From Candidatus Eisenbacteria bacterium (GTDB lineage Bacteria > Eisenbacteria > RBG-16-71-46): a stretch of DNA of 34,816 bases. Of the stretch, positions 9,697-34,777 are shown piece after piece (the first letter of the stretch is position 1; each line of letters begins with the position of its first letter). The position numbers and the translations under genes were made by a program. The stretch is from positions 1 through 34,816 of the forward strand of contig JABFRW010000041.1 of NCBI GenBank assembly GCA_013140805.1, given 5' to 3'. The notes beneath the pieces are model-generated. The model saw only the letters and a list, made by a program, of their open reading frames with translations, was not told where the DNA came from and searched no databases.

Positions 9697-9776
9697 CACG
9701 CAGGGAAGGCGCACAGAGCGCTGATCCGTCCCTGAGGCTCGTACCATTTCCAAGGACAGGAAGGAGAGCGTCACTG

Positions 9777-10058
9777 ATGGCAAAGATGATGACGAAGTCG
9801 CAGATCGCCGCTCACATCGCGACCAAATTTGAGCTCACGAAGAAGACCGGCACCGCGATTCTCGAAGAGCTCGCGACGCTGGCCGCCAAGCAGGCGAAGA
9901 ATGGCTTCGTGTTCCCGGGCGTCGGCAAGCTCGTGGTCGTGAAGCGCAAGGCCCGCATGGGTCGCAACCCGCAGACCGGCGAAGCGATCAAGATTCCGGC
10001 GAAGACCGTGCTCAAGTTCCGGATCGCCAAGGCAATGAAGGAGCTGGCACTCAAGTAG
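9777..10058 (+). CDS. hup: HU/IHF-family DNA-binding protein
   Basis: 93-residue histone-like protein, the usual HU length. The N-terminal helices (MTKSQIAAHIATKFELTK then TAILEELATLAAK) form the dimer core. The DNA-binding arm is VFPGVGKLVVVKRKARMGRNPQTGEAIKIPAKTV by position (residues 45-78); it contains the GRNPxTGE signature with the intercalating proline. FRIAKAMKELAL closes the fold. AAGGAG sits 10 nt before the ATG. It has its own promoter and a strong intrinsic terminator, so it is monocistronic. It shapes the nucleoid and could assist loop formation at nearby promoters. HU and IHF subunits cannot be separated by eye, but the neighbourhood favours a single HU-like protein. Confidence 0.93.
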   Translation: MAKMMTKSQIAAHIATKFELTKKTGTAILEELATLAAKQAKNGFVFPGVGKLVVVKRKARMGRNPQTGEAIKIPAKTVLKFRIAKAMKELALK

Positions 10059-11006: not shown

Positions 11007-12922
11007 CGAGGGCCTCCGGAGCGGATGAGTTCGAGCAGCACAGTGGGGCGTCGAGCGTCCGGGTCGCGCGGCGCATTCGCGACGATTTCGGACAGCGAGG
11101 TGTCCCCCTGCAGCGCCCGCATGACTCCGGACTCCTGAAGGGTCGAGAACACCGGAAGGTGGCGCGCCAGCGAACGCAATTCACGCGACGCGGCGCGACG
11201 CAGCACCGCATCGCGCAGGTCGTCGCTCGGCACCAGCACCTCGTGGATCGCGACGCGACCCTTGTATCCGGTGCCGTTGCAATTGGCGCATCCGCGGCCG
11301 GCCATCAGGCTGAGACCGGCGAGGTCGGCGCGTTCGATGTCGAGATAGCGCAGATCCTCGCGCAACGGCTCGACCGGCGAGGTGCAGTTCGGACACACGC
11401 GCCGCACCAGCCGCTGGGCCACGATCGCACTGATCGTCGAAGACACGAGGTAGGGCTCGACTCCGAGGTCGATCAGGCGGATGAGCGCCCCGACCGCGTC
11501 TTCGGTGTGAAGCGTCGAGAACACCTGATGACCGGTGAGCGCCGCCTCGACCGCCAGTGCGGCGGTTTCGCCGTCTCGGATCTCGCCGACCACGATGATG
11601 TCGGGATCCTGGCGCACGATCGCGCGCAGCGATTGCGCGAAGGTCGGCCCGGTCTTGCTGTTGATCGAGCACTGCGCCACGCCGGGGATCATGTATTCCA
11701 CCGGGTCCTCGGCGCTGATCACCTTGATGCCCGGATCATTCACGTAGTCCACGAACGAGTAGAGCGTCGTGGTCTTGCCGCTGCCGGTCGGGCCGGTCAC
11801 CAGGATGCAGCCCGCGTTCGCGCGCAACACGACGTCGCGCAACATCGAGAGCGGCCGCGCCTCGAAGCCGAGATCCTCGAGCGACACCAGCCCGCGACGG
11901 CGATCGAGCAGTCGCAGCACCGCGGTCTCGCCGAACATGCTGGCGTAGGTCGAAACACGAATGTCGATCTCGCCGCCGTCGAGCTTGACGCGGAAGCGGC
12001 CGTCCTGATGCAGGCGCCGTTCGGCGATGTCGGCGTCGGCCAGCACCTTGATGCGCGAGATGAGCTGCGGCGCGAACGCGGCGGGCAGTCCGGTGAGCGT
12101 CTGCATGACGCCGTCGACTCGCACCCGCACGCGCACCGTGCGCTCGAGCGGTTCGACGTGCAGATCGCTGGCACGCATCTGGATCGCGCGCATCAGCAGA
12201 TCGTCGAGAATTCCGATCGCGCCACGGCCCGATGGATCGTCGCTGGTGGTCTCGCGGATCTCGCGGTACTGGAGCGTGGTCCCGGCCGCGGGCACGTGGC
12301 CGTCGCGCAGGCGCTCCACCGTTTTGAGCGTCGCGACGATCTTCTCTTCGGCGGCGAGACAGGGGCGCACCGGCATGCGATAGATGCGCTCGAGTTCGGC
12401 CACGCACGCGACATCGAGCGGATCGGACATGGCGACCGACAGCTCCTCGTCGGCGACCCGCAGTGGCAGGACCCGATTGCGAACCAGGTACGGCACCGAG
12501 ACGTCGGCGAGCAGCGCCGGATCCACGAGTCCGGCATCGGGCTCGACGATCGGGAGGTCGTGCTTGAGCGAGACCGCGTTCATGAACTGCGCCTCGGTCA
12601 CGAGGCGCCGGCCGACCAGCACCTCACGCTCGGATCCGTCGGGATTCTGCGATCGCGCCAGCTGGTAAGCGGCGCGGCCCTCGGGGTCGAGCGCTCGATT
12701 GGCGACCAGGATCTCGTCGAGCGAGAGCGTCGCCTGATGCACGCGCAACACGCGTTCGTACTCGGAGCGTGCCAGCTGTCCGGTCGAAACCAGGATCTCG
12801 ACCGGCGACTTCGGCTGCTTCAGATGGGCCGAGACGCGGCGCGCGCGCGCCAGCTGGACTTCGCTGACGATGCCCTCGGCCAGCAGCTTCGACTCGAACG
12901 CATCCAGTTCGGCGTTGGGCAC
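11003..12922 (-). CDS. PilB/GspE-type secretion or pilus assembly ATPase
   Basis: 639-residue type II secretion/type IV pilus extension ATPase. The N-terminal 250 residues include T2SSE_N/MshEN-like segments (LVGRRLVTEAQFMNAV, then PYLVRNRVLPLRVADEELSVAMSDPLDV), but the RLG motif of c-di-GMP-binding MshEN domains is not conserved. The catalytic half carries SDLHVEP, Walker A GPTGSGKTTT, VEYMIPGVAQ, Walker B PDIIVVGEIRD with the catalytic Glu, the TGHQVFSTLHTEDA His box, and the tetracysteine zinc site CPNC and CANCNGTGYKG. The chosen start is GTG because GGGAGGGGAG sits just upstream; an upstream ATG would add 20 residues. No pilC, pilT, pilin or gsp gene is in the window, so it is an orphan here. 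PilB and GspE cannot be separated by sequence alone. Confidence 0.9.
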   Translation of the reverse strand: MPNAELDAFESKLLAEGIVSEVQLARARRVSAHLKQPKSPVEILVSTGQLARSEYERVLRVHQATLSLDEILVANRALDPEGRAAYQLARSQNPDGSEREVLVGRRLVTEAQFMNAVSLKHDLPIVEPDAGLVDPALLADVSVPYLVRNRVLPLRVADEELSVAMSDPLDVACVAELERIYRMPVRPCLAAEEKIVATLKTVERLRDGHVPAAGTTLQYREIRETTSDDPSGRGAIGILDDLLMRAIQMRASDLHVEPLERTVRVRVRVDGVMQTLTGLPAAFAPQLISRIKVLADADIAERRLHQDGRFRVKLDGGEIDIRVSTYASMFGETAVLRLLDRRRGLVSLEDLGFEARPLSMLRDVVLRANAGCILVTGPTGSGKTTTLYSFVDYVNDPGIKVISAEDPVEYMIPGVAQCSINSKTGPTFAQSLRAIVRQDPDIIVVGEIRDGETAALAVEAALTGHQVFSTLHTEDAVGALIRLIDLGVEPYLVSSTISAIVAQRLVRRVCPNCTSPVEPLREDLRYLDIERADLAGLSLMAGRGCANCNGTGYKGRVAIHEVLVPSDDLRDAVLRRAASRELRSLARHLPVFSTLQESGVMRALQGDTSLSEIVANAPRDPDARRPTVLLELIRSGGPR

Positions 12923-13023
12923 GACTCCCCTCCCTAGGTGGCGGCCGCAGGGGCTCCGCTCGCCGGCTTCCGTGCTCGGCATGAAACAACTCGAAACCGC
13001 GCAGAGGGCGGCTTCGGGGCAAA

Positions 13024-13050
13024 GTGTCGGCCGGAAGTGCTCTCAATTGA
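13024..13050 (-). promoter_or_regulatory. sigma-28-like promoter, leftward (PilB-HDOD operon)
   Basis: Read on the minus strand, TCAA (13050-13047), exactly 15 nt, then GCCGACAC (13031-13024). This resembles the FliA consensus TAAA-N15-GCCGATAA and the TCAAG-type variant known in some bacteria. Expected start near 13017, giving a leader of about 95 nt before the PilB-like GTG. It mirrors the rightward site at 13061-13087. FliA itself is encoded at 26908-27666. Confidence 0.6.
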
Positions 13051-13060
13051 ACGTGCCCCC

Positions 13061-13087
13061 TCAAACTCCGGGCGCGGCGGCCGACAC
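13061..13087 (+). promoter_or_regulatory. sigma-28-like promoter, rightward (HDOD-sthA-motAB operon)
   Basis: TCAA (13061-13064), 15 nt, then GCCGACAC (13080-13087). The spacing and core are identical to the leftward site. Predicted start near 13094 leaves a leader of about 37 nt, with GAGG before the ATG. Control of stator genes by sigma-28 is the rule in many flagellated bacteria, which supports the call. Confidence 0.65.
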
Positions 13088-13130
13088 TTGGACCTGTCAG
13101 CCGGTCCACCCCGGGTCCCTCGAGGAATTC

Positions 13131-13991
13131 ATGTCGTCCGCCACCCCGCTTCCTGTCCCCATGGATGAGGACTCGCTCGCGTCGGCGTTGCGCGCGCGCC
13201 TGGAGTCCGGCCCCATCGAACTGCCGCTGCTGCCGGAGACGGCCACGGCAGTGCTCGCCGCGTGTCGTCGCGACGAGAGCGGTACCCGCGAAGTCGCGCA
13301 GATCATGCAGCGCGACCCCGCGTTGACCGCGAACGTGCTGCGGATCGCGAACAGCGCGCTCTACTCGCGCGGCGCCGCGATCGTTTCGCTGCCCCACGCG
13401 GTCGGCCGGCTCGGGATCTCGACGGTCGGCGAAATCGCGGCGGCCGCGGTCATGCGCACCACGCTGTTCACCAACGCTCCGGAGGAAGTCTCGATCGAGG
13501 AGCTGTGGCGCCACTCCGCATGCTGCGCGAACTGGGCACGCGAGATCGCGCGCTATCGCCGCCACAGTGTCGAAGGCGCATTCCTGGCCGGACTGCTGCA
13601 CGATGTCGGAAAGCCGGTGCTCCACCATCTGATCGCGCAGGACAACGCGCACGCGCGGCATGCGATTCCGATCGAGGTCACGCGCAGGGTGGTCGAAGAC
13701 ATGCACGGCGAGATCGGCGGCCTGCTGGCCGAGCGCTGGAATCTGGCCGAGTGGATCGCGATCGCGATCGCGCACCATCACCACCCCGAGAACGCGCCTT
13801 CACATCCGTCCGAGGTGCACACGGTGGCACTCGCGAATCACTTCGCGCACGTGGTTTCGGATTCCAGTTTCACGAACATCTCCCATATCGCTCATCCGTC
13901 GGTCGATGTGCTCGACCTCTATGTCGAGGACCTCGAGGCGCTCGCCGAGCGTCGTGACGACGTGCACTCTGCCGTGGAGGCAATGCCGTGA
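13131..13991 (+). CDS. HDOD domain signalling protein (copy 2)
   Basis: 286-residue HDOD protein, a diverged paralogue of copy 1. Order of landmarks: IELPLLPETATAVLAA, QIMQRDPALTANVLRIANSALYS, HAVGRLGISTVGEIA, LWRHSACCANWAREIAR, FLAGLLHDVGKPVLHHL, HGEIGGLLAERWNL, and IAHHHHPENA. It keeps more HD-like residues (HDVGK and the HHHH cluster) than copy 1, so residual metal binding is possible. It is the first gene of the stator operon and overlaps sthA by 4 nt (GTGA). The start ATG is preceded by GAGG. A role in gating motility or late flagellar signalling is inferred from position only. Confidence 0.87.
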   Translation: MSSATPLPVPMDEDSLASALRARLESGPIELPLLPETATAVLAACRRDESGTREVAQIMQRDPALTANVLRIANSALYSRGAAIVSLPHAVGRLGISTVGEIAAAAVMRTTLFTNAPEEVSIEELWRHSACCANWAREIARYRRHSVEGAFLAGLLHDVGKPVLHHLIAQDNAHARHAIPIEVTRRVVEDMHGEIGGLLAERWNLAEWIAIAIAHHHHPENAPSHPSEVHTVALANHFAHVVSDSSFTNISHIAHPSVDVLDLYVEDLEALAERRDDVHSAVEAMP

Positions 13992-18802: not shown

Positions 18803-20104
18803 ATGCCTTCCTACTCGCTTTCGCACCTCGCCGATCGGGTGCTGCTGCGCGATCTCGCCTCGCTCGTCGCCACCGATCGCGTCACGACTGCCGCACTCCT
18901 CGCTCATCTCGCCGAAGTCGAGGTGCGCCAGCTCTACCGGCCCGCGGCGTACTCCTCGATGCTCGCCTACTGTGTGGGTGAGCTGCGGCTGTCCGAGTCC
19001 GCGGCGCTGAGACGCATCCGCGCGGCTCGCATCGCCCGCAAGTTCCCGGTGCTGTTCCCGGCCATCGCCGATGGACGGATCCATCTCACCACCGTGCTGC
19101 TGCTCGCGACCCACCTGACTCCTGAGTCGGTGGAAGAACTCGTCGCGGTCACCACCCATAAGACCAGGGAAGAAGTGGAGCAGCTGCTGGCGGAGCGCTT
19201 CCCGCAGCCCGATCTCCCGACGAGCTTGCAGGCCATGGGGTTGCCGGCTCCGCCCATGGCGAGAGTCGCGAACGAACACACTGCCGAGGTGGCGCTGGAG
19301 CTACTTCAAAATGAAACACTTCTGGCGGCGCCAGTGGCTGCAGCCCCGGTTGGACGAGCGAGGGTCGCTCCGCTCTCCGCCGACCGCTATGCGCTGCAGG
19401 TCACACTCGCGAAGGAAACGCATGACCAGCTGCGCTACGCCCAGGCGCTGCTGAACCATGCGGTTCCCTCGGGCGACCTGGCACAGGTGCTCGACCGGGC
19501 GCTCAAGGCGCTGGTGCGTCAGCTCGAACAGCGCAAGTTCGGAGCCGCCGCGCGCACCTGTCCTCGACGCGGCAAGCCGCAGGGTCGCTACGTGCCCGCA
19601 CCGGTGCGGAAGACGGTATGGCTGCGCGATGGCGGCCACTGCACGTTCGTAGGTGAGAACGGGCGGCGCTGCGAGGAGCGAGCGCGCCTGGAATTCGATC
19701 ACATCGAGCCGGTCGCACGAGGAGGGACTACCACCGCGGCGAACCTGCGGCTGCGCTGCCGGGCGCACAATCAGTACGAGGCCGAGCAGCTGTACGGAGT
19801 GGCATTCATGCGCGACAAGCGGGAGAAGTCGCAGCGCGGCGCTGTGAGAGCAAAGCCCGCAGCGAGTGCGACTGCAGGGCCGCGTGCGACCGCGGAGCCG
19901 AACACAGCCGCGCCCACTCCCGACAACGACGTGATCCCGTGGCTGCGGCGACTGGGGTTTCGCGCGGAAGAGGCGCGTCGCGGGGCGGCGTGCTGCGACG
20001 CCATCCCCGAGGCGTCGCTCGAGGAGCGAGTTCGGCGGGCGCTGACTCATCTCGCGCCGAGCTGCCGGCGTGACGGCCCTCAGGCGACGAGAAGTCCGGC
20101 GTGA
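18803..20104 (+). CDS. HNH endonuclease-containing protein
   Basis: 433-residue protein. The N-terminal two-thirds (1-260) is helical: LADRVLLRDLASLVATDR, ELRLSESAALRRIRAARIARKFP, then a paired-helix segment ETHDQLRYAQALLNHAVPSGD. The HNH nuclease core follows: RKTVWLRDGGHCTFVG, LEFDHIEPVARGGTTTAANLRLRCRAHNQYEAE, with the DH, N and H residues intact. The tail IPWLRRLGFRAEEARRGA resembles RuvA C-terminal helices. This architecture belongs to a multicopy HNH family of unknown role found in high-GC environmental bacteria. Start ATG chosen by homology-like onset; only a weak ribosome binding site is seen. It converges on flgK with a 14-nt gap, in the place where flgL would be expected. Confidence 0.8.
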   Translation: MPSYSLSHLADRVLLRDLASLVATDRVTTAALLAHLAEVEVRQLYRPAAYSSMLAYCVGELRLSESAALRRIRAARIARKFPVLFPAIADGRIHLTTVLLLATHLTPESVEELVAVTTHKTREEVEQLLAERFPQPDLPTSLQAMGLPAPPMARVANEHTAEVALELLQNETLLAAPVAAAPVGRARVAPLSADRYALQVTLAKETHDQLRYAQALLNHAVPSGDLAQVLDRALKALVRQLEQRKFGAAARTCPRRGKPQGRYVPAPVRKTVWLRDGGHCTFVGENGRRCEERARLEFDHIEPVARGGTTTAANLRLRCRAHNQYEAEQLYGVAFMRDKREKSQRGAVRAKPAASATAGPRATAEPNTAAPTPDNDVIPWLRRLGFRAEEARRGAACCDAIPEASLEERVRRALTHLAPSCRRDGPQATRSPA

Positions 20105-24121: not shown

Positions 24122-24780
24122 GAATCCTCCTTCGCGATCGCGACTTCGCCGCGTCCGCTCACGGTTCCCATCAGTGTCGAATGATCCACACGAACCCGCA
24201 CTTTCTCGCCCCGCCCGGCGTCCGCGAGCGCGATCCCCGAGCGCTCGATCACCACGCCGGGGCGCGACCACGAAACCCGCACCGCATCTCCGGCGCGGAC
24301 CAGCGCCGGCGGCAACAGCGCCGGTGCCCGCAACGCTTCACCGGCCGAGATCGCGCAGCGCACGGCGCTGCCGAGCTCCGGCGTCAACACCTCGTGCGTC
24401 GGCGGTTCGCCCCACATCAAACGCGATTCGAGCCTTGCATCGCCGTCCTGCAGCACCGAGCCGGGCGACAGCGGTCGCGCCGCCACCCACACGCCGAGCC
24501 GCACACCGGCACGCAGCCGCACCGCACTCGAGCGCCCGTCACGGGCGCGCGCGAGCACCACCCACCAGCCGTCACGCCCTCGTCCCTGCAGGCGAAACGC
24601 CGAGCGGTCGTCGAGTGCCTCGCGCGCCACCGAGTCGGGCCACGCGAGTGCGACGTGCGACACCGGCACGCGCCAGATGTCGGCGATGCGCAGCGCCAGT
24701 CGCGTATCGAGCCCCGCCCCGGGTGACGCGGCGAGCGCGAGCCCGCACACCGCTCTGAGCACTTCAGCGGATGAGGTCAC
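24118..24780 (-). CDS. flgA: P-ring assembly chaperone FlgA
   Basis: 220-residue periplasmic chaperone required for FlgI ring assembly. A short hydrophobic N-terminus (VCGLALAASPGAG) may be a signal peptide. The SAF-like C-terminal half carries GVWVAARPLSPGSVLQDGDARLE, then GSAVRCAISAGEALRAPALLPPALVRAGDAVRV by position, and ends with a beta domain (VRVDHSTLMGTVSGRGE). The N-terminal domain is divergent. Placed between flgG and flgH, its common position. It overlaps flgG by 17 nt. Confidence 0.85.
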   Translation of the reverse strand: MTSSAEVLRAVCGLALAASPGAGLDTRLALRIADIWRVPVSHVALAWPDSVAREALDDRSAFRLQGRGRDGWWVVLARARDGRSSAVRLRAGVRLGVWVAARPLSPGSVLQDGDARLESRLMWGEPPTHEVLTPELGSAVRCAISAGEALRAPALLPPALVRAGDAVRVSWSRPGVVIERSGIALADAGRGEKVRVRVDHSTLMGTVSGRGEVAIAKEDS

Positions 24781-25552
24781 TGGTCGCCTGCATCATGTCC
24801 TCACCCACGCGGATCGCGCGGGCGTTGATCTCGTAGGCGCGCTGCGCCGCGATCATGTCGGTCATCTCCTGCACGATTTCCACGTTGCTCGATTCGAGCG
24901 AGCCCTGAATCACGCGGCCGAATCCTTCGTCCTGAGGCAGCCCTTCGATCGGATCGCCCGAAGCCGGCGTCTGCAGGTACTGGTTCTCGCCGATCGCGAG
25001 CAGCCCGTTGGGATTGAGAAACCGCGCCACCTCGATGCGCCCGACTTCGACGGGATCCGCCGCACCCGGCGTCATCACGCTCACGATTCCGCTCGGTCCG
25101 ATCGAGACCTGCGCCGAGTCGCGCGGCACGTTGATCTCGGGGACGATCGGGTAGCCGCCATTCGTCACCAGGGCACCGCTCTCCGACAGCGACAGATTGC
25201 CGTCGCGCGTGTACGCGGTATTGCCGTCGGGGCGTCTCACCTGCAGGAAACCGTCGCCTTCGATCGACAGGTCGAGCGGCCGGCCGGTCTGTTCGACCGC
25301 GCCCTGACCGTGCTGGCGCAGGATCGCCGCCACCCGCACGCCCTTGCCGACCTGCACCGGACCGACGTTCTCCGCGCCCGGCTGATTGACGATGCGAGTG
25401 CCCTGCAGCGTCTCGTAGAGCATGTCTTCGAAGCTCACGCGGCTGCGTTTGAAGCCGGTGGTGTTCACGTTTGCGAGGTTGTCGGCGATCACGTCGATCA
25501 TGCGCTGCTGCGCGATCATTCCGGTCGCCGAAGTTCGAAGGCTCGAGTTCAT
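24764..25552 (-). CDS. flgG: flagellar distal rod protein FlgG
   Basis: 262-residue FlgG, the usual length. Signatures: MNSSLRTSATGMIAQQ, VIADNLANVNTTGFKRSR, QTGRPLDLSIEGDGFLQV, YTRDGNLSLSESGALVTNGGYPI, and the C-terminal VIQGSLESSNVEIVQEMTDMI then AQRAYEINARAI. The distal rod crosses the periplasm inside the P and L rings. A ribosome binding site (GGAG) lies about 10 nt before the ATG. A 60-nt gap with a palindrome separates it from flgF. Confidence 0.96.
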   Translation of the reverse strand: MNSSLRTSATGMIAQQRMIDVIADNLANVNTTGFKRSRVSFEDMLYETLQGTRIVNQPGAENVGPVQVGKGVRVAAILRQHGQGAVEQTGRPLDLSIEGDGFLQVRRPDGNTAYTRDGNLSLSESGALVTNGGYPIVPEINVPRDSAQVSIGPSGIVSVMTPGAADPVEVGRIEVARFLNPNGLLAIGENQYLQTPASGDPIEGLPQDEGFGRVIQGSLESSNVEIVQEMTDMIAAQRAYEINARAIRVGEDMMQATSDLIR

Positions 25553-25612: not shown

Positions 25613-26311
25613 CTAGTTCGGCAGGCGTCCGACCTCGTTCGTCACCGTGCCGAGCACGCTGTCCAGCGTGCGCAGCGCATCCACATTGGCCTGATACGCG
25701 CGCTGAATCGCGATCAGGTCGACCATCGACAACATCGGATCAACGTTCGGCTCTTCGACCGCACCCTGACGCACGCGCGTCACTTCGGAGTCCGCGATGC
25801 CGCGCTCGCCGACCGGCACGAAGCGGCCCGCGGCTTCCTTCAGCAATCGCTGCGGTTCGGCGACGGTTTCGCGGCGCAGTTGACCGACGCCGACGCCGTC
25901 CACCCACACGGTACCGTCCACTTCGAGTTCGACTTTCGATCCCTGAATCACGATCGGACCCTCGATGCCGAGCAGCGGATCGCCGTGCACGTCGGTGAGC
26001 CGGCCGAGCGTGTCGAGTCGCATCGAGCCACCCCGCGTGAGCCGCTCGCCATTGGGTGTCCCCACCACGAAGAAACCGGGCCCGTCGAGCGACACGTCGA
26101 GCGGACGCCCGGTCTCGCGAAACGCCCCCTGGTGCAGGTCGAGCGTGCGCACCGGCACCGGGAAGCGCTCACCCGGGCGCCGCTCGGCGCTCAGGTGATC
26201 GCTCTTGAACGAATCGGTGTTCGCGTTCGCCAGGTTGTTCGCCGTCACCTCCTGCAGGCGCAGGTAGAACCCGAGCGAGCGGGCGGTGTTGACGATGCCG
26301 TTCAGTGGCAT
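25613..26311 (-). CDS. flgF: flagellar basal-body rod protein FlgF
   Basis: 232-residue rod protein homologous to FlgG but shorter and lacking its long central domain. Signatures: LRLQEVTANNLANANTDSFKSDH, ETGRPLDVSLDGPGFFVVG, LTRGGSMRLDTLGRLTDVHGDPLLG, and the C-terminal QGAVEEPNVDPMLSMVDLIAIQRAYQANVDAL by position. FlgF forms part of the proximal rod. GGAGG is only 4 nt from the ATG. Assigned FlgF rather than a second FlgG from order (before flgG) and size. Confidence 0.92.
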   Translation of the reverse strand: MPLNGIVNTARSLGFYLRLQEVTANNLANANTDSFKSDHLSAERRPGERFPVPVRTLDLHQGAFRETGRPLDVSLDGPGFFVVGTPNGERLTRGGSMRLDTLGRLTDVHGDPLLGIEGPIVIQGSKVELEVDGTVWVDGVGVGQLRRETVAEPQRLLKEAAGRFVPVGERGIADSEVTRVRQGAVEEPNVDPMLSMVDLIAIQRAYQANVDALRTLDSVLGTVTNEVGRLPN

Positions 26312-26329
26312 GGCTCCTCCGTGAGCAGT

Positions 26330-26348
26330 CGACGCCCTCGCGGCGTCG
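26330..26348. promoter_or_regulatory. palindrome upstream of flgF
   Basis: CGACGCC-CTCGC-GGCGTCG, a 7-bp perfect stem in the 57-nt gap before flgF. Core bases match the palindrome at 25579-25593. Confidence 0.5.
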
Positions 26349-26368
26349 TGAGGCAGATCATCACTGCG

Positions 26369-26908
26369 TCAAGCAATCCATGTGCCTTGAGTGCCTCGCG
26401 CGTCTCGGGTCGCATTGGCTACGACTTGCGCGCGCGTGAGCCGTGGCTCGGGTCGGCGAGCTCCGGTGTGTGCCGGAACTTTGTTCCGGTTTTGCGGAGC
26501 ACTCTTCCGCTTGCGAGGTCGCTCGAGCGTCTGCGTCCACAGCACCATGCGCACGGCGTCCTGAGCCAGCCGCGTGCGGCGCGCGATCGAGGCGACCGAG
26601 TGTCCGTCGCGTACCAGGCGCAGCACACGGTCGCGCGAGACCGTCGAACGAGCCGGTCCGAGCGCGTGAGTGCGACGAATCGATGCGATCAGAGCGAACA
26701 CCAGCACCGCGAGAAGTGCGGCGGCCACCGACGGTGCGATCGCCAGCAGGTCGGCGCCGTTGAGCGACACCGACGCGCCGTGCCAGCGCAGGAATCGCCA
26801 CATGGCCGAAGCCGAGTAGAGCGCCGCCATGACGTGACCGCTCACCAGCCCCGCCGCTGCGAAGATCACCACCGTGCCCGCGAGTGCCGCCAGTAATTGT
26901 CGGTTCAT
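26369..26908 (-). CDS. membrane-anchored protein with HTH-like tail (DUF6115-like)
   Basis: 179-residue protein. Two membrane segments (residues 7-30, AALAGTVVIFAAAGLVSG; and about 52-75, LLAIAPSVAAALLAVLVFALIAS) are followed by a cytoplasmic helix-turn-helix-like stretch, STVSRDRVLRLVRDGHSVASIARRTRLAQDAVRMVLW by position (around residues 88-124). The tail of about 50 residues is rich in Arg and Lys. Small membrane proteins with a sigma-factor-like HTH are found directly after fliA in other diderm flagellar operons (DUF6115). The ATG shares one base with the fliA stop (TGATG), so it is coupled to sigma-28 translation. Its function is not known. Confidence 0.7.
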   Translation of the reverse strand: MNRQLLAALAGTVVIFAAAGLVSGHVMAALYSASAMWRFLRWHGASVSLNGADLLAIAPSVAAALLAVLVFALIASIRRTHALGPARSTVSRDRVLRLVRDGHSVASIARRTRLAQDAVRMVLWTQTLERPRKRKSAPQNRNKVPAHTGARRPEPRLTRAQVVANATRDARGTQGTWIA

Positions 26909-27666
26909 CACGCCGCCTCCCGGATTTCGATTTCCGAGCGCAGCCGCAGCAACGCTCGGGTGCGGATCTGAGAGACCCGCGACTCGGTGATGTGAAGCAC
27001 CGCGCCGATCTCGCGGTGACTCAACCCTTCGTAGTACGACAGCGAGAGCACCAGGCGATCGCGCTCGCTCAAAGAATCGAAGGCCTCGCGCAGGCACGTC
27101 AGCGTTTCGGCGTGCTCGATGCGAGCACCCGGCAGCTCGTTGCGCTCGTCCGCCAGTGTTTCCGACAACGGCGCGCGATTGCCGGCCTCATTGACCGGCG
27201 AGTCGAACGCGAGCATCGGCGCTCCCGGCAAATTGCGACTCCACTTCCAGAACATGTCCAGGTCCACTTCGAGCGCATCCGCCATCTCCTGCGGGTGAGG
27301 TGCCCGGCCGAGCTTCTGTTCGAGCCTGGCGTGCGTGCGCGACAGCAGCGATTGACGCTCGCGCACCGTGCGGGGCACCCAGTCCTGCGCGCGCAGTTCG
27401 TCGACGATCGAGCCGCGGATGCGCGGCATCGCGTAGGTGCTGAATGCCAGTCCCCGAGCGGGTTCGAAGCCTTCGAGCGCCTGGACCAGCCCAACCGTGC
27501 CGGCGCTCAACAGATCGCCGAGTTCGATGTGGCGCGGACTGCGGCGCACGTATTCGTGCGCGGCGCGGTGAACCAGCCCCAGGTAGTGCGCGAGCAGGGC
27601 GCTGCGCGCCGTGAGGTCGTTGTTCCCGCGATAGCGCTGCCACAGCGCGTCGGTGATCGGATTCAT
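26908..27666 (-). CDS. fliA: flagellar sigma factor sigma-28 (FliA)
   Basis: 252-residue FliA/WhiG-type sigma. Region 2: LVHRAAHEYVRRSPRHIELGDLLSAGTVGLVQALEGFEP by position, then FSTYAMPRIRGSIVDELRAQDWVPR, the -10 recognition helix with the family's RIRG and DELR wording. Region 3: LSRTHARLEQKLGRAPHPQEMADAL. Region 4: LSERDRLVLSLSYYEGLSHREIGAVLHITESRVSQIRTRAL by position, the -35 reader. It directs RNA polymerase to late flagellar and stator promoters. ATGA overlap with flhG. No flgM is present in the window. Two matching promoter sites occur at 13024-13087. Confidence 0.95.
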   Translation of the reverse strand: MNPITDALWQRYRGNNDLTARSALLAHYLGLVHRAAHEYVRRSPRHIELGDLLSAGTVGLVQALEGFEPARGLAFSTYAMPRIRGSIVDELRAQDWVPRTVRERQSLLSRTHARLEQKLGRAPHPQEMADALEVDLDMFWKWSRNLPGAPMLAFDSPVNEAGNRAPLSETLADERNELPGARIEHAETLTCLREAFDSLSERDRLVLSLSYYEGLSHREIGAVLHITESRVSQIRTRALLRLRSEIEIREAA

Positions 27667-28481
27667 CGCGACTCTCCCACCGGGGCCGTGAGACCGAGCC
27701 GGGTGGCGAGCGTTTGGGTCGCGATCGCAAGTCCGGGTGGTGCTTCGGCGAGCAGCGCGCCGGGCCGGCGCACCGCACGTCCGAGTGCCGCATGCTCGTG
27801 CACCGCACCGAGCCAGGTGATCGGGTGGCCGAGGAAGCGGCCGACCGCGAGCTCGAGGCGCGCGAACGAATCGCGCGCTTCGTCGTCGTGAGCGACTCGA
27901 TTGACCAGCACGTCGACCGGGAGCCCGGGAAGCTCTCGCACGATCAGCTTGAGCACCACGTAGGCATCGCACAGCGCGGCCGGTTCCGGGATCAGCACCA
28001 GCACGACGCGGTCGGCTCTCACCGCGGCGGCGCGCAACACGTCGTCGGGGCCCGGACCTGCGTCGACCAGCGAGACATCGAACGCGTCGTGAAGGTGCGA
28101 CATGCGCAGCTCGTGCCGCGCACGATCCACCGCCGAGAGCCCGCGCAATGCTTCGGCTCCGCCGGCTCCCGGCAGCAACCACATGTGATCGCGAACCCGC
28201 GTGAGCATCTCCCCCGGCCGCCGCTCGGCAGTCAGGACCGCTTCGAGCGTCACCGGCGTGCGTGCGCCGAGCAGCAGGTGAAGGTGCCCGAACGCATGCC
28301 CCGCGTCCGACACCAGCGTGCGGAGCCCGCGCGCCGCGAGTGTCGCGCCCATCAGTCCGATGAGCGCCGACTGGCCGACGCCACCCTTCCCGCTCGCGAA
28401 CACCACCGTGCGTCCCTGTCGGGTCGCGGTTTCGCGCGCGCCGCCGGACGGCGTTCCGTATTCGACCGCTGCGCGCGTCAC
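27663..28481 (-). CDS. flhG: FlhG/MinD-like ATPase with altered P-loop
   Basis: 272-residue ParA/MinD family protein in the flhF-flhG-fliA position, where FlhG controls flagellar number with FlhF. The deviant Walker A is SGKGGVGQSAL (residues 30-40): the signature Lys of KGG is kept, but the canonical P-loop Lys (KGGVGKT/S) is Gln at residue 37. The usual DADLGxxN becomes DAGHAFGH (residues 59-66), removing the second Asp and the Asn. The Walker B strand keeps its Asp (VSLVDAGPGPDD). The C-terminal part keeps the VLVLIPEPAALCDAYVVLKLI and DVLVNRV segments of FlhG. Likely reduced or absent ATPase activity. Overlaps flhF and fliA by 4 nt each. Confidence 0.88.
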   Translation of the reverse strand: MTRAAVEYGTPSGGARETATRQGRTVVFASGKGGVGQSALIGLMGATLAARGLRTLVSDAGHAFGHLHLLLGARTPVTLEAVLTAERRPGEMLTRVRDHMWLLPGAGGAEALRGLSAVDRARHELRMSHLHDAFDVSLVDAGPGPDDVLRAAAVRADRVVLVLIPEPAALCDAYVVLKLIVRELPGLPVDVLVNRVAHDDEARDSFARLELAVGRFLGHPITWLGAVHEHAALGRAVRRPGALLAEAPPGLAIATQTLATRLGLTAPVGESR

Positions 28482-29440
28482 GACACCAGCTCCAGTCTCG
28501 CCGCCGAAGCCGAACGATCTCCGCTCGGCGCGGTCGCGCCGCGCGGGGATCGCGCGTCGCGCATCGCCCCTTCGAGCCCCATTGCACGCAGATCCGAAGG
28601 GATCTCCTGCCCATCTCCGTACCAGCGGACCGGCAGCGCCAGCGATTCGGCCAGCTCGAACGCGATCCGATCGTTCGGATGCTCATCGAGCTTGGTCGGC
28701 AACACGTGCGTTGCGCCCAGGTCGCGCACCCGTTCGAGCGCCACCGCCGCCGCCGCGCGCGAAAGGCCCGCGGGAATCACGGCGTGCGTCTCGAGTGGAT
28801 ACAGCACGTGCAACAAGCCGCGCAGCGTGTCGTGATCCTCGCGCCGGCGCGGTCCGCGTCCCGGCGTGTCGACCAGCACCACATCGCAACGGCGCAGGTG
28901 CTTGAGCGCGCGCGGAACGTCCTCCGCGCGATGCGCGAACTCGACCGGCGTGCGCGCCAGCGCGCCCAGCGAGCGCAGCTCCTCGACCGCGCCCGCCCGG
29001 AAGGTGTCGAGCCCGAGCACGCCGACCACCAGTCCGCCCAGCACGTCCGGGTGACTCGCCAGCTTGGCGAGCGTGGTGGTCTTGCCGCCACCGGTCGGGC
29101 CGACCAGCGCGATGACGGGCGGGAACTCGTCGCGACGCGCGGCGAGCGCGAGCGGTGACAGCGTCCGCGCCGCGAGTGACGCGCGTGCGATGTGCGAGAG
29201 CCGGGGCGAGTCGGCCGTGCGTGACTCGCCGGCGCCCGGCGTGACCGCGCGCGGCGGGCCGATGCGCTTCACTCCGGCGCGCGGTGCGAACGCATGGGGA
29301 TCGCCCGGTCGCACGGCAGTCAGCGCGAGTTCGCGCCCTTCGCGCCCGACCGACAGCACGATGGCGTCAGGCCCCAGTGCTGCGCGCGCGCGCGCGAGCA
29401 GGGTGTGGAGTTCGGGTCCGGTAAAGGTCTCAGGCGGCAC
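28478..29440 (-). CDS. flhF: flagellar SRP-like GTPase FlhF
   Basis: 320-residue SRP-family GTPase that sets flagellar position. A shortened N-terminal B domain (residues 1-60, ELHTLLARARAALGPDAIVLS) is followed by the NG domain. G1 is ALVGPTGGGKTTTLAKLA, then GVLGLDTFRAGAVEELRSLG, G3 is VVLVDTPGRG, the HAVIPAGLSR segment follows, and G4 is LPTKLDE. The usual long acidic linker is short. GTG start chosen because GGGAG lies 7 nt upstream; an ATG 21 nt earlier is possible. Overlaps flhA by 11 nt. Confidence 0.92.
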   Translation of the reverse strand: MPPETFTGPELHTLLARARAALGPDAIVLSVGREGRELALTAVRPGDPHAFAPRAGVKRIGPPRAVTPGAGESRTADSPRLSHIARASLAARTLSPLALAARRDEFPPVIALVGPTGGGKTTTLAKLASHPDVLGGLVVGVLGLDTFRAGAVEELRSLGALARTPVEFAHRAEDVPRALKHLRRCDVVLVDTPGRGPRRREDHDTLRGLLHVLYPLETHAVIPAGLSRAAAAVALERVRDLGATHVLPTKLDEHPNDRIAFELAESLALPVRWYGDGQEIPSDLRAMGLEGAMRDARSPRGATAPSGDRSASAARLELVS

Positions 29441-31604
29441 GTTCGAGCTCCCACAGGGCAAGGGTTTCGATCGGGGTCTGCGGCGGCAGCTCGGCGAGCG
29501 AGATCACCGGCAACCGGGGCAGCAGCGGTTCGACCAGACGGCGGATTCCGACACGCAGCGCCGGCGGGGTGACGAGCGGCGGCAGCCGCCCGTCGCTGCG
29601 CTGCGACTGCGCGAGGTTCGTGAGCGATTGCAACGCCCGCGTGAGCTGCGCGGGATCGAGCGGTGATTGCCCCTCACGGGCGCGCGCGGTGAAGAGCTGC
29701 ATCAGTGACACTTCGAGGCGCGGTCCCACCGCCAGCGCCCGCACCGGTCCACGGCTCGAGCCGAGCTGCTGAGCGATCTGGGCACCGAGTGCTCGGCGCG
29801 CGACTTCCGTGAGCGCTTCCGGATCCTTGGTCTGCTCGCCGGCGTCGGACAGCGCCTCGAGAATCACGACCAGGTCGCGCACCGCCACGCCCTCGCGCAG
29901 CAGGCGCTGCAGCACGCGATGCACCGCGCCGAGCGACAGCTTGTTCGGCACCACGTCCTCGATCAGCGCCGGATGCGTCTCTTTCAAACCGTCGAGCATC
30001 TGACGCACGCCCTGCCGGGTGAGCAGCTCGGCCGCATGGGTGCGGATGGTTTCGAGCAGATGCGTGATCATCACGGTCGCGGGTTCCACCACCACGTAGC
30101 CGGCGGCTTCCGCCTCGACGCGCTGCGACGGATCGATCCACACCCCGCGCATGCCGAAGCTCGGGTCCTCGGCCGGAACGCCATCGAGCGGCGCCGCGGT
30201 GCCACGCAGGTCGAGCGCGAACAGATGGCGCGCCAGCAGATCGCCGCCGCCGACGCGCGCGCCGCGCAGCTTGATCACGTACTCGCCGTGGCCGAGCTGC
30301 ACGTTGTCGCGGATGCGAGTGGGCGGCACCAGCAGTCCGATCTCGAACGCAATCTGCTTGCGAAGCACGCCGATGCGTTGCAACAGGTCACCGCCCTGCG
30401 CGGCATCGGCGAGCGGCACCAGCCCGTAACCGATCTCGATTTCGAGCGGCTCGATCGACAGCATCTCCGACATCGCGGGCGGCTCCTCGCCGACCGTGGC
30501 CGCGTCCTTCGCAGTGGCCTCGGTCTCGGCGAGCTCGGCGGCTTCGGTCGCGCGGCGGCTGCGCAGCACGAACGCGGTCGCGGCGAGAACTCCGGAGAGC
30601 CCGAGGAACGGCAGCATCGGCAACCCCGGCACCAGCGCGAACACGCCGAGGATCCCCGATGCGGTCCACAACGGACGCACGTTGCGGGTGAGCTGGCTCG
30701 CGACCGACGGTGCCATCGAACCGCCGCCCGAGCCGTAGGTCACCAGCAGGCCGGCCGCGGTGCTCACGATCAGCGCCGGGATTTGCGTCACCAGTCCGTC
30801 GCCGATCGTGAGCGCCGAGTAGGTGTGGAACGCCTCGCCGGCCGCGAGCCCGCGCTGCGTCATGCCGATGATCACGCCGCCGACCAGATTGATGATCGTG
30901 ATCACGAGCCCCGCGACCGCGTCGCCGCGCACGAACTTGGCGGCGCCGTCCATCGCGCCGTAGAAGTCGGCGTAGCGGGCGATCTCCTCGCGGCGCCGGC
31001 GCGCCTCGTGTTCGTCGATGAGCCCGGCGCTCAGATCCGCGTCGATGCTCATCTGGCGGCCGGGCATCGCGTCCAACGTGAAACGTGCCGCCACCTCGGC
31101 GATGCGTCCCGCACCCTTGGTGATGACCATGAAGTTGATCACGACCAGGATCAGGAAGATGACGAGCCCCACCACCACGTTTCCGCCGATCACGAAGTTT
31201 CCGAACGCCCGGATCACTTCGCCGGCGTGGCCGGTGCTGAGAATCAGTCGGGTACTGCTGACGTTGAGGCCCAGTCGCAGCAGCGTGAGCAACAGCAGAA
31301 GGCTCGGGAACACGCTGAACTCGAGCGGGTCGCGAGTCGCGACCGTGACCAGCATCACGACCAGCGAGAGCGCGAGGCTCATGGCGAGCAGGATGTCGAG
31401 CATCAGCGGCGGAAGCGGCACCACCAGCAGCGCCACCACCGCGACCACACCGATCGCGAGCACCGTCTCGGCGGTGCCCGGGATCTTCGGCAGCGAGAAG
31501 CCGTTCCCGGGCCGCACCGTGCGCGGCGCAGGCGCGCCGATCGCGCGTCCCCCCGGCGAGGTGCGCACGCCGGCGGCGCCGCCCGGCATCGAGACCGCGC
31601 TCAT
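29430..31604 (-). CDS. flhA: flagellar export gate protein FlhA
   Basis: 724-residue FlhA. After a Pro/Gly-rich N-terminal extension of about 35 residues come seven to eight membrane helices. They start at TAETVLAIGVVAVVALLVVPLP and include the highly conserved GLNVSSTRLIL, FLILVVINFMVITKGAGRIAEVAARFTLDAMPGRQMSIDADLSAGLI (FHIPEP signature, by position) and YGAMDGAAKFVRGDAVAG. The cytoplasmic half begins near residue 350 and has the LEIEIGYGLVPLAD region, PPTRIRDN, and the C-terminal SVLVTPP-like VISLAELPP end. It forms the nonameric ring that docks substrate-chaperone complexes. Overlaps flhB by 4 nt. Confidence 0.97.
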   Translation of the reverse strand: MSAVSMPGGAAGVRTSPGGRAIGAPAPRTVRPGNGFSLPKIPGTAETVLAIGVVAVVALLVVPLPPLMLDILLAMSLALSLVVMLVTVATRDPLEFSVFPSLLLLLTLLRLGLNVSSTRLILSTGHAGEVIRAFGNFVIGGNVVVGLVIFLILVVINFMVITKGAGRIAEVAARFTLDAMPGRQMSIDADLSAGLIDEHEARRRREEIARYADFYGAMDGAAKFVRGDAVAGLVITIINLVGGVIIGMTQRGLAAGEAFHTYSALTIGDGLVTQIPALIVSTAAGLLVTYGSGGGSMAPSVASQLTRNVRPLWTASGILGVFALVPGLPMLPFLGLSGVLAATAFVLRSRRATEAAELAETEATAKDAATVGEEPPAMSEMLSIEPLEIEIGYGLVPLADAAQGGDLLQRIGVLRKQIAFEIGLLVPPTRIRDNVQLGHGEYVIKLRGARVGGGDLLARHLFALDLRGTAAPLDGVPAEDPSFGMRGVWIDPSQRVEAEAAGYVVVEPATVMITHLLETIRTHAAELLTRQGVRQMLDGLKETHPALIEDVVPNKLSLGAVHRVLQRLLREGVAVRDLVVILEALSDAGEQTKDPEALTEVARRALGAQIAQQLGSSRGPVRALAVGPRLEVSLMQLFTARAREGQSPLDPAQLTRALQSLTNLAQSQRSDGRLPPLVTPPALRVGIRRLVEPLLPRLPVISLAELPPQTPIETLALWELERAA

Positions 31605-32710
31605 CGAATGCTCCGATCAAGTCCCGGAAGCGCGCCGCCGGCAGCGAGCCGTTTGCGGTAGACGAAGGCGAGGATTTCGGCGATCGCGCCGAACAGCACC
31701 GGCGGCACCATGCGGCCGACCCTGGCAGTCGCGAACAGCGCGCGCGCCACGGCCACGTTCTCCACCACCGGCACGTTGGCCTTGAGGGCGATCTCCTTGA
31801 TGCGGACCGCGAGCTTGCGCTGACCCATCGCGACCACCAGCGGTGCCGGCGCTTCGTCGGGGTCGTAGCTCAGAGCCACCGCGATGTGGACCGGGTTCAC
31901 CACCACCACGTCGGCGGTGCGAACCGCGTGCAGCATGTGCTGGCGGGCGCGCGCGCGCGCCACCGACTGCATGCGCGCCCTGACCATCGGGTCGCCTTCG
32001 GCCTCGCGATTCTCGCGCACGATTTCGTCGCGACTCATGCGCAGCCCGCGCTCGTGCTTCCACCACTGGATGCCGTAGTCGGCGGCCGCGAGCACCAGGT
32101 AGGCGAGCCCGCAACTCATCATGACGCGCATCAGCGCGTGTCCCGCGACCTGCAGCACCTGCGCCGGAGACGCACCCGACAGCACCGCGAGCTCGGGACG
32201 CGTCTGGTCGAGCGAGCGCCACGCGACGAGCCCCAGGACGCTCAGCTTGAGGATCGACTTGGCGAGCGTCCACAGCGCCTCGGGCTGCAGCAAGCGCTGG
32301 ACGCCCTGGAGCGGATTCAGATTCGAGAACTTGGGCAGCAGCGGCTTCATCGAGATCACGCCGCGCGTCTGTGCGAGGTGCACCAGCACGATGATCGCCG
32401 CCAGCGCTCCGCCGAACGGCAACAGCGTCGAAGTGAATCGCATCGTGAGTGCCCGCAGCATCGCCACGGCGCCCATCAGCGTCATGGGATCCGAGCTGAT
32501 CGCCGAGGCGCTCATGTGCAGCGTGGACTCGATCAGACGTGCGAACTCGCGCGCACCGCCGCTGGCGAGCAATGCCGCTCCACCCAGCAGCGACGCGGCC
32601 GCCGTCAGTTCCGCGCTGCGCGCGACCTGACCCTCGGAGCGCGACTGTTCGCGCCGCCTCGCGGTCGGGGCTTCGGTCCGTTCCTGTTCGGAGCGCTGTC
32701 CGTCGGCCAT
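31601..32710 (-). CDS. flhB: export specificity switch protein FlhB (NPVH variant)
   Basis: 369-residue FlhB. The basic N-terminus (ERTEAPTARRREQSRSEGQVARS) is the family entry signature. Four membrane helices follow, with LLPKFSNLNPLQGVQRL between them, as expected. The cytoplasmic domain has MSRDEIVRENREAEGDP. The autocleavage motif reads NPVH (residues 272-275) where the family has NPTH; Asn and Pro, which form the cleaved bond, are retained. Cleavage in FlhB switches export from rod/hook to filament proteins. The gene starts 3 nt after fliR ends. Confidence 0.94.
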   Translation of the reverse strand: MADGQRSEQERTEAPTARRREQSRSEGQVARSAELTAAASLLGGAALLASGGAREFARLIESTLHMSASAISSDPMTLMGAVAMLRALTMRFTSTLLPFGGALAAIIVLVHLAQTRGVISMKPLLPKFSNLNPLQGVQRLLQPEALWTLAKSILKLSVLGLVAWRSLDQTRPELAVLSGASPAQVLQVAGHALMRVMMSCGLAYLVLAAADYGIQWWKHERGLRMSRDEIVRENREAEGDPMVRARMQSVARARARQHMLHAVRTADVVVVNPVHIAVALSYDPDEAPAPLVVAMGQRKLAVRIKEIALKANVPVVENVAVARALFATARVGRMVPPVLFGAIAEILAFVYRKRLAAGGALPGLDRSIR

Positions 32711-32713
32711 GGC

Positions 32714-33502
32714 TCAGTGCCCGCCCGCGGTCAGGGCCGCCACGCTGCGTTCGATCGCGAACGGAAGATTCGAGAAGCCGTGCTCGAGTGCGCCCGCGGT
32801 CCACGGCAGCAGAGCGCCGGTGATCACGAAGCCGACGGCCGTCGAGATCGGCAGCGAGACCATCATGGCGTTCAGGTGCGGTACCGCGCGGCTCAACACC
32901 ACCAGCGCGACGTTGGCCAGCAGCAGCGCGACGATCACCGGCGCGGCGGTTGCGACGGCCGCTTCGAACAGCGTGCGGCCCAGCGCCACCAGCGCGACAC
33001 CGTTGCCGGGATCGAGCGGCGTTCCGGGCGGCAGCTGCGTGAGACTCTCGGCAACCCCGCGCAGCAGCGCGACGTGGCCGCCGAGCTGCACGTAGATGCC
33101 GAGCGCCAGGAACGATTGAATCTGCGCGAGCCCCGGTGATTCGAGCTCCGGCATCGGTGCGAGAGCCGGCCCGAGCGAGAGGCCCATCTGCGTCGACACC
33201 ACTTCACCGGCCAGCGATGCGCCGTACACGATGAGTGCGGCCGAGAGCCCGATCACCACTCCGATCGAGAGTTCGCCCGCCATCATCATGGGCAGTTCGA
33301 GCGCATGGGGCGCCGTCGAGAGCGGCGGGCAGGTCGGCAACAGTGCGGCCGAGAACACCACGATCGCCGCCGCTCGCACACGCCGCGGCACACTCGCCAT
33401 CGACCACAACGGCGCGATCAGGAACAGACCCGAGAAGCGTGCACTCACACACGCGAAGGCCGGCCATCGATCGGGTGCGAACAACGCCTCGAGCCCGTTC
33501 AT
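32714..33502 (-). CDS. fliR: flagellar export gate protein FliR
   Basis: 262-residue multi-spanning protein starting MNGLEALFAPDRWPAFACVSARFSGLFLIAPLW by position. Family features: RVRAAAIVVFSAALLP, MMMAGELSIGVVIGLSAALIVYGASLAGEVVSTQMGLSLG by position, and the C-terminal VALVVLSRAVPHLNAMMVSLPISTAVGF. It completes the FliP5-FliQ4-FliR1 gate. ATGA overlap with fliQ. An ATG 66 nt earlier lies inside fliQ and is unlikely. Confidence 0.93.
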   Translation of the reverse strand: MNGLEALFAPDRWPAFACVSARFSGLFLIAPLWSMASVPRRVRAAAIVVFSAALLPTCPPLSTAPHALELPMMMAGELSIGVVIGLSAALIVYGASLAGEVVSTQMGLSLGPALAPMPELESPGLAQIQSFLALGIYVQLGGHVALLRGVAESLTQLPPGTPLDPGNGVALVALGRTLFEAAVATAAPVIVALLLANVALVVLSRAVPHLNAMMVSLPISTAVGFVITGALLPWTAGALEHGFSNLPFAIERSVAALTAGGH

Positions 33503-33768
33503 GCCGCGAGGCTCGGAAGGCTGCGGATCATCTGGACGACGTAGCCCACCAGGGTTCCGAGCACCCACGGCAGCGTGATCGCGAACACCAAAGCCATCAG
33601 CACCAGCTTGGGCAGGAACGTGAGCGTCTGCTCCTGGAGCTGCGTCACGGCCTGCACCACGCTGACCGCCACGCCGACCAGCAGCGCGGTGAGCAGCAGC
33701 GGTGCCGCGACGGTGAGCGACATCGTCAGCGAGTGCCGAATGAGATCGACCGCAAACGAGGAGTTCAT
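33499..33768 (-). CDS. fliQ: flagellar export gate protein FliQ
   Basis: 89-residue protein of normal FliQ length with two membrane helices (LTMSLTVAAPLLLTALLVGVAVSVVQAVTQLQEQTLTFLPKLV by position, then MALVFAITLPWVLGTLVGYV). The QxxTQLQEQTLTFLPK loop is the family signature. It forms the helical hairpin ring of the export gate. Starts 4 nt after fliP. Confidence 0.95.
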   Translation of the reverse strand: MNSSFAVDLIRHSLTMSLTVAAPLLLTALLVGVAVSVVQAVTQLQEQTLTFLPKLVLMALVFAITLPWVLGTLVGYVVQMIRSLPSLAA

Positions 33769-33772: not shown

Positions 33773-34777
33773 TCACCGGAAGCTCTGGACGAGGTTCTGG
33801 ACCACCAGCACCCAGCCGTCTGCGAGCACGAACAGCAACAGCTTGAGCGGCAGCGAGATCATCATGGGCGGCAGCATGAACATGCCGAGGCTCATGAGGA
33901 CCGAGGCGACCACCAGATCCACCACCACGAACGGCAGGAAGATCACGAAGCCCATCTGGAAGGCGGTGCGCAGCTCGCTGGTCACGAATGCCGAGACCAC
34001 CGTGACGACCGGGAGCTCCTCGACGGCGAGCGACGAGTCGACGCCGGTGAGCTCGGCGAACGTCTCGAGGTCCTGGGTGCGCGTGTTCGAGAGCATGAAC
34101 TCGCGCATCGGCCCGAACCCGCGCGTGTAGGCGTCGGCCTGCGGAAGTTGACCCGCGATGTAAGGCTGGATCGCCTCGCGATTCACCTGATCGAGCACCG
34201 GGTGCATGACCACGCCGGTGAGCAGCACCGACAGAGCCACCAGCAACTGCGTAGGTGGCGCGGTCTGGGTGCCGAGTGCGGTGCGCAGGAAGTGCAGCAC
34301 GATCAGAATGCGCGTGAAACTGGTCATGAGCAGGAACAGCGCGGGCAACAGCGTGAGCGCACCCAGGAACACTACGAGCCCGACCATGCCGTCCAGTTGC
34401 ACGCCGTTCGCGCCGTCACCGATCGAGATCTGCACTTGAGGCGGCTGAGGTACGACGATGTGCAGAGCTCCCGGCGAGAGCACCGGCGGCGAACCGGTGC
34501 GCAGCGTCGGCGCCGAGGTCGAAGGCTGCGGCACGGTCGTGTTGATGGGACGCGGCGCCAGTGCGGCCGGCGCGGTCGCCGCGTTGGGCGTGGCCGCCGC
34601 AGCCGCCTGCTTCGCGAGCGCCAGTGCTGCGGCCCGCGTGGGTGAAGTCGCGGTCTGCTGCGCGAGCACCGGTGCGGCTGCCGCGAGCGTCAGCGTGAGT
34701 GCGACTCCTGCAACCAGCACCGCCGCTCCACTGCGCGAGCCGCGCGAAAACGCTTCGCGCAGCTTCTGCGCGAGCAT
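33773..34777 (-). CDS. fliP: flagellar export gate protein FliP with long N-terminal linker
   Basis: 334 residues from the ATG given here; typical FliP proteins are about 245. Residues 15-40 look like a signal peptide (AAVLVAGVALTLTLAAAAPVLAQ). Residues 41-115 are an extra Ala/Pro/Thr-rich linker. The core then matches FliP closely: FLGALTLLPALFLLMTSFTRILIVLHFLRTALGTQTAPPTQLLVAL by position, HPVLDQVNREAIQPY, VVSAFVTSELRTAFQMGFVIFLPFVVVDLVVASVLMSLGM by position, and LADGWVLVVQNLVQSF. The reading frame stays open upstream to the window edge, so the true start could lie further right. Confidence 0.92.
   Translation of the reverse strand: MLAQKLREAFSRGSRSGAAVLVAGVALTLTLAAAAPVLAQQTATSPTRAAALALAKQAAAAATPNAATAPAALAPRPINTTVPQPSTSAPTLRTGSPPVLSPGALHIVVPQPPQVQISIGDGANGVQLDGMVGLVVFLGALTLLPALFLLMTSFTRILIVLHFLRTALGTQTAPPTQLLVALSVLLTGVVMHPVLDQVNREAIQPYIAGQLPQADAYTRGFGPMREFMLSNTRTQDLETFAELTGVDSSLAVEELPVVTVVSAFVTSELRTAFQMGFVIFLPFVVVDLVVASVLMSLGMFMLPPMMISLPLKLLLFVLADGWVLVVQNLVQSFR

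Follow-up and report, generated by a model that had tools for sequence, protein, structure and literature searches.

A candidate pseudo-ATPase FlhG, altered at its ATP-binding and hydrolysis sites, in a flagellar operon of Candidatus Eisenbacteria

The FlhG protein encoded in a flagellar operon of a Candidatus Eisenbacteria bacterium has lost the P-loop lysine, the catalytic aspartate and the FlhF-activating motif. By descent, fold and place the protein is an FlhG; it lacks the features of an ATP switch and of an FlhF activator. We favor, with confidence and doubt in about equal measure, the reading that it is a stepwise-eroded pseudo-ATPase of the operon kind that we call B-type, with residual nucleotide-independent docking to the C-ring. 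It looks like an enzyme that is becoming a passive part, or one that is on its way out.

Results

The window analyzed here, 34,816 nucleotides in length, is the whole of contig C41; the draft genome has 3.80 Mb in 215 contigs and is 96% complete. The flhG gene (27663..28481, minus strand; 272 aa, GTG start) was identified by open reading frame call, alignment and fold, and sits in a flagellar operon with flhF before it and fliA after it, the placement typical of FlhG and FleN. It shares bases with both neighbors: its start with the stop of flhF (28478..29440), its stop with the start of a sigma factor gene of the fliA/whiG type (26908..27666, 252 aa). The operon genes given here with coordinates are all on the minus strand. 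FlhF, an SRP-type GTPase, has intact G motifs (GPTGGGKTT, VDTPGR, TKLDE), and its GAVEQ motif reads GAVEE. Upstream are fliP (33773..34777), fliQ (33499..33768), fliR (32714..33568, which as listed overlaps fliQ and whose true start may be further in), flhB (31601..32710) and flhA (29430..31604), the sole FHIPEP gene found in the genome. Downstream are a flgF-like rod gene (25613..26311), flgG (24764..25552), flgA, flgH, flgI, flgN and flgK. Codon-position GC of flhG (0.81/0.53/0.81) resembles that of neighboring genes, and two flagellin-domain genes are present in the genome. The flhG frame has no interruption, and overlaps couple it to both neighbors.

About 600 bases (26312-26907) separate fliA and flgF, with no Pfam match in the frame at 26369-27097; locus L069 has a gap of comparable size, and the interval may hold a small unnamed gene. 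Elsewhere, the window encodes a Sortilin/Vps10-like repeat protein (6863-9517), whose C-terminal domain is FlgD Ig-like, adjoining an HU-type gene (9519-10058), a type II/IV secretion ATPase with an MshEN domain and an HDOD gene on each side (10149-13991), and an open reading frame adjoining flgK with a weak HNH endonuclease match (18803-20104).

Both replacements first noticed in the raw sequence were confirmed. The P-loop reads KGGVGQS in place of KGGVGK(T/S), with glutamine encoded by CAG at residue 37 (28371..28373, minus strand), a position occupied by lysine in 80/80 outside relatives from a set not selected on it. Switch I reads DAGHAFGH (residues 59-66; 28284..28307, minus strand) in place of DADLGxxN. 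Gly61 stands at the catalytic aspartate position and His66 at the asparagine position; in an alignment of 36 outside FlhG these are aspartate and asparagine in every sequence. That alignment (A3; 36 of 39 loci passed motif and length filters) required SGKGGVGK[ST] by script, so its lysine column is lysine by construction.

The remainder of the protein, previously described as intact, has also changed. The DQAxxLR helix that activates FlhF is replaced by TRAAVEY at residues 2-8 (28458..28478, minus strand). At a conservation of 85% or more, the 36 outside FlhG have 38 columns in common. Of these the window protein keeps 26 and changes 12, including the mild change T38S, and eight of the 12 are residues 37, 38 and 61-66 of the P-loop and switch I. 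The nucleotide pocket is not fully dismantled, since D59 (the first aspartate of DAD), the signature lysine K32, S38, the switch-II residue D140 and N194 are retained.

An AlphaFold2 model of the window FlhG, with the 36 outside FlhG, gave a pLDDT of 89.5 and a pTM of 0.86; residues 1-13 are unreliable, and a helix is predicted at 249-261, a candidate for the C-terminal membrane-targeting helix of FlhG. The best solved match was FleN-AMPPNP (5j1j; Foldseek E 4.3e-18; VIA Z 29.7, rmsd 2.4 over 246 residues, 26% identity). FlhG 4rz3 (Z 28.7, rmsd 2.2 over 240 residues) ranked above MinD. A profile of the B clade matched FleN/FlhG at E of about 1e-43 and MinD entries at no better than about 1e-21. 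In fold and profile, FlhG/FleN are thus the best matches, above MinD/ParA.

The window genome's family (f1; 20 genomes, all with an FlhG match) carries two types of FlhG-like gene. In a tree of 81 FlhG, rooted at the midpoint with no MinD outgroup, the A and B types each fell on one side of a branch with support of 100/99, and the B type formed one clade beside the other FlhG; the program flagged two long B branches. B-type FlhG was present in seven of the 20 family members and in genome G036 of another family, with the order flhA-flhF-flhG-fliA wherever the contig shows it. The flhA gene was found in seven family genomes, six of the seven with B-type FlhG plus G016, whose contig ends inside flhF and leaves its B-type FlhG unread; the G013 contig begins inside flhF. 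The comparisons covered 47 genomes of the class, a single one of the genus, and outside FlhG sets. A first scan of a named genome collection with the window protein returned no relatives. A second scan with the alignment of the eight B-type FlhG (A1; seven from the family plus G036) returned 80 loci with a best identity of 36%, and the B-type switch I was found in none of them.

Alignment A1 separated the two losses. None of the eight proteins has aspartate at the catalytic position (glycine in the window, alanine in four, serine in two, cysteine in one), so that four carry naturally the laboratory 'D60A' state. Switch I is DGAQNQGN or a close variant in six of the eight, and no new conserved acid was seen there in the clade. 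At the P-loop position lysine is kept in seven, with glutamine only in the window FlhG; at the switch-I asparagine position the same seven have asparagine and only the window protein has histidine. By this pattern of sharing the losses differ in age, that of aspartate being clade-wide (8/8) and that of lysine private (1/8). The same-clade alignment proposed in the preliminary description gave a split answer: seven relatives do keep the lysine, as a sequencing error or strain-specific mutation would predict, and all of them lack the aspartate.

The DQAxxLR motif is retained in five of the eight and missing in the window FlhG, G008 and G036. It is also missing by regular expression in many FlhG-like loci of outside genomes and is thus not universal in FlhG. 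In an alignment of FlhF (A2; seven of nine proteins, those of G013 and G016 being left out because they are cut by contig ends), the glutamine of GxVEQ is replaced by glutamate or alanine in the window genome and G008 and kept in the other five. Loss of DQAxxLR in FlhG may thus parallel loss of this glutamine in FlhF, a hint only, as G036 has lost the FlhG motif yet keeps the FlhF glutamine.

Terminal branches of the window genome were compared with the median of its relatives under a single substitution model, each ratio being based on between 5 and 12 taxa. B-type flhG was 3.6-fold (6 taxa) or 2.2-fold (5 taxa) longer, flhF 2.7-fold, and fliA 3.1-fold or 1.8-fold. The ratio was 1.6 for flhA, 1.7 for flhB and 0.9 for both flgF and flgG; an earlier flgG estimate that included a G018 paralogue was discarded and replaced in the final set. 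At the A-type locus, ratios were 3.9 for flhG, 1.6 for the neighboring sigma factor gene, 1.4 for NtrC and 2.1 for the hybrid kinase. G008, the family's other genome without DQAxxLR, ranked next fastest in flhG and flhF.

Genome G025, of another family in the same class, has a B-type operon (flhA 61%, flhF 39% and fliA 44% identical) in which no flhG lies between flhF and fliA. The flhF stop overlaps the fliA start (TAATG at 1831 of L091; L091:1040-2676). Profile search of this genome, which is 88% complete, found no FlhG-level match: the best score was 58.8 bits, against 229 bits for the window flhG and 279 bits for an A-type gene. G025 offers a natural flagellar system with FlhF and without FlhG. 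A second flhA in G028 (L090) reaches an identity of only 40%, and the 19 kb read there contain no FlhG; this locus is probably another system.

Predicted residues for docking to the C-ring are kept in the window FlhG. K177, R207 and F215 of Geobacillus FlhG are reported to be needed to bind the C-ring protein FliY, and this binding to occur without ATP (PMC12327844, whose text prints the second residue also as 277). The equivalents by alignment are Lys178 (27948..27950), Arg208 (27858..27860; arginine in 7/8 B-type FlhG) and Phe216 (27834..27836; phenylalanine in 8/8), all on the minus strand, giving the window FlhG the marks of a C-ring binder at the level of sequence. Retention of Lys178 and of the glycine-rich loop is weak evidence for function, since both are near-universal in the family; among the docking residues Arg208 alone is not shared across the family, and its position among the 36 outside FlhG is threonine in 14 and arginine in 10. 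The FliM of the genome, on contig C205, has an EIDAL-like N-terminal motif (LTQRDIDRLL), as do 7/7 FliM found in the family. EIDAL of FliM is described as the CheY site as well (PMC6946799), and the motif is therefore no proof of FlhG docking. FliM of G018 (L183), G016 (L184) and G004 (L187) have two tandem EIDAL-like N-terminal motifs, for example NQRDVDSLL and TQREIDAIL, and that of G019 (L185) has a single such motif with a weaker second copy.

The second FlhG of the window genome, on contig C108 (L042:4396-5460), is of the A type. An intact second copy had been suggested as a check; only this A copy was found, and it is not intact. It reads RGGVGRS, with arginine at both the signature and the P-loop lysine, encoded by CGC and CGT, at least two changes away from lysine. 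It keeps the catalytic aspartate (DLDLAQAS) and occupies the longest A-type branch. It is the sole A-type FlhG with P-loop arginine: the other 33 of 34 have lysine, 32 by script and that of G011 as read from the sequence. In one genus (L036 of G015, L049 of G017), A-type FlhG have lost the signature lysine (SGRNGVGKS, SGGGGVGKS) and kept that of the P-loop. Other ParA-type proteins of the window genome, Mrp (C95), a Soj-like (C52) and a ParA-like protein (C201), keep the P-loop lysine, so that its loss is no general bias of the assembly. Considered as a spare FlhG, these three were rejected, as they keep the lysine but are not FlhG.

A-type FlhG was found in 20/20 family genomes, only seven of which have an flhA found; 13 show none. 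Its locus in the family holds two-component regulators, some of the NtrC type, along with a second sigma factor of the FliA/WhiG type, and in f1 loci such as L034, L030 and L042 the FlhG-like gene adjoins NtrC-type regulators, a sigma factor and a hybrid kinase. No flhA, flhB or flhF stands beside it in the family loci examined. Outside the family (G020, G024, G028, G031) the A type is the usual flagellar FlhG, flanked by flhF and a sigma gene. By analogy with FleN and FleQ, the family's A-type FlhG may perhaps have been cut loose from flagella to act on an NtrC-type activator. That both paralogues of one genome lost the P-loop lysine is suggestive of a shared loss of the need for ATP control, no more, as the chance probability is about 1 in 7 when, in each FlhG family, the lysine is lost at random by one of the seven f1 genomes that have both copies.

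Discussion

Mutants of other FlhG and of FleN guide our predictions of nucleotide behavior. In Vibrio FlhG, D60A is reported to abolish ATPase activity, to keep ATP binding and to affect function only slightly, and Walker A mutants to fail in localization and to make too many flagella (PMC7226244). Geobacillus FlhG is reported to keep an ATP-dependent partner with D60A and to lose it with K36A, and D65A of B. subtilis FlhG to leave hook distribution not discernibly changed (PMC12327844). FleN K19A reportedly loses dimerization and has about 16% of its ATPase left (PMC10723142). From these, the B clade overall should bind ATP and not hydrolyze it, and the window FlhG should do neither well. A literature search for K36Q found nothing. 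A search by titles and opening lines of abstracts returned no natural FlhG without the P-loop lysine or with a degenerate ATPase; we do not claim its absence from print.

Erosion would have proceeded in steps, with the later order suggested by the sharing pattern of the losses rather than by dating. In the ancestor of all eight B-type FlhG the catalytic aspartate would have been lost; by the D60A and D65A mutants, such a protein may bind ATP and hardly hydrolyze it. In the window genome only, the P-loop lysine and switch-I asparagine would then have been lost, and ATP-driven dimerization would not be expected. The FlhF-activating helix would have gone here as well, as in two other lineages. 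What remains would be a monomeric, nucleotide-independent protein, probably docking to FliM of the C-ring by the K178/R208/F216 surface, and FlhF would work without FlhG stimulation. G025 may represent a stage past the loss of flhG itself, the window genome standing at that of a pseudo-ATPase.

The preliminary description had proposed a possible pseudo-ATPase that regulates FlhF or sigma-28 without cycling. Its first half is the likeliest reading, because two independent sites of ATP binding or hydrolysis are gone from a protein with an open, coupled frame and a confident predicted fold. Control of FlhF by the known route found no support, as the helix that stimulates FlhF in other FlhG (DQAxxLR; PMC12826062) is lost as well.

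The strongest rival, doubtful but serious, is that this lineage has ceased to need the FlhF-FlhG switch and that flhG is decaying without function, drifting to loss. Faster evolution of flhG (2.2 to 3.6-fold) and flhF (2.7-fold) than of flhA, flhB, flgF and flgG is consistent with such decay; it is also expected from relaxed selection alone and counts against a docking factor. The second copy is likewise accelerated and has lost its P-loop lysine, and G025 has the same type of operon without any flhG. Decay is harder to reconcile with a frame still open over 272 codons, overlaps kept on both sides, codon-position GC in keeping with the neighbors, a confident FlhG fold and 26 of 38 widely conserved columns. 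On balance, with a single genome to judge from, we rate a working docking factor as slightly more probable than decay.

A working ATPase with relocated chemistry, in which the signature K32 acts in trans and Gln37 serves as a weak phosphate ligand, is improbable: K32, S38, D59, D140 and N194 are all there, but the catalytic aspartate and P-loop lysine are both gone and the clade has gained no conserved acid at switch I. It is very unlikely that the A copy supplies the ATPase function for the flagellum. It adjoins an NtrC-type regulator and a sigma factor of the FliA/WhiG type and keeps its catalytic aspartate; against this, it reads RGGVGRS, lies outside the flagellar operon, and belongs to a type present in all 20 f1 genomes, seven of which have a detected flhA. 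A sequencing or assembly error at codon 37, raised in the preliminary description and made conceivable by a 215-contig draft of a single strain and a codon one base from lysine, is hardly credible, given that the aspartate, asparagine and DQAxxLR sites are altered too, that the second copy independently has arginine codons, and that other ParA-type genes of the genome read lysine.

Tentatively, one flagellar lineage may be dismantling its FlhF-FlhG switch piece by piece, losing hydrolysis (8/8), FlhF activation (3/8), ATP binding (the window genome) and the gene itself (G025), with FlhG transiently a nucleotide-free docking factor. FlhF, the C-ring and the export gate would, on the same tentative footing, persist throughout. 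If so, a flagellar system could go on using FlhF with no need of the ATPase cycle or, finally, of FlhG. Mutants made in the laboratory suggest that FlhG must bind ATP and has hardly any need to hydrolyze it, and the B-type lineage would repeat that experiment in nature: none of the eight proteins has the hydrolysis residue, one is predicted no longer to bind ATP, and another operon of the same type lacks flhG. Natural FlhG at successive stages could show which goes first, the ATP cycle, FlhF activation or C-ring docking.

Known systems resemble the window FlhG in different respects. TadZ/CpaE is a precedent for an atypical Walker A. MinD shares the P-loop fold family (Z of about 25). NCBIfam NF047398, a KGGVGR-motif variant AAA ATPase, has its P-loop lysine replaced by arginine, as in the A copy, which at 47.0 bits against a cut-off of 90 is not a member; nor is the window FlhG, which is not listed among its matches.

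Pseudomonas FleN (5j1j, 7ejw, 8p53) is the closest match in fold, and the reported P. putida order flhF-fleN-fliA is that of the window operon. FleN is known to differ in that it forms dimers with ATP and is an inhibitor of FleQ, a sigma-54 activator. Geobacillus/Bacillus FlhG/YlxH (4rz2, 4rz3) shares with the window protein its fold (Z 28.4-28.7), the order flhF-flhG, the C-ring docking residues and motifs found across the family, DAYxxxK among them. In Geobacillus the protein is switched by ATP between monomer and dimer and has Lys36, Asp60 and the activator helix; the window FlhG has none of the three. Opposite residue 61 of the window protein in the alignment, the 4rz3 chain has alanine and 4rz2 has aspartate, and this D60A state of the laboratory protein is the natural state of four of the eight B-type FlhG.
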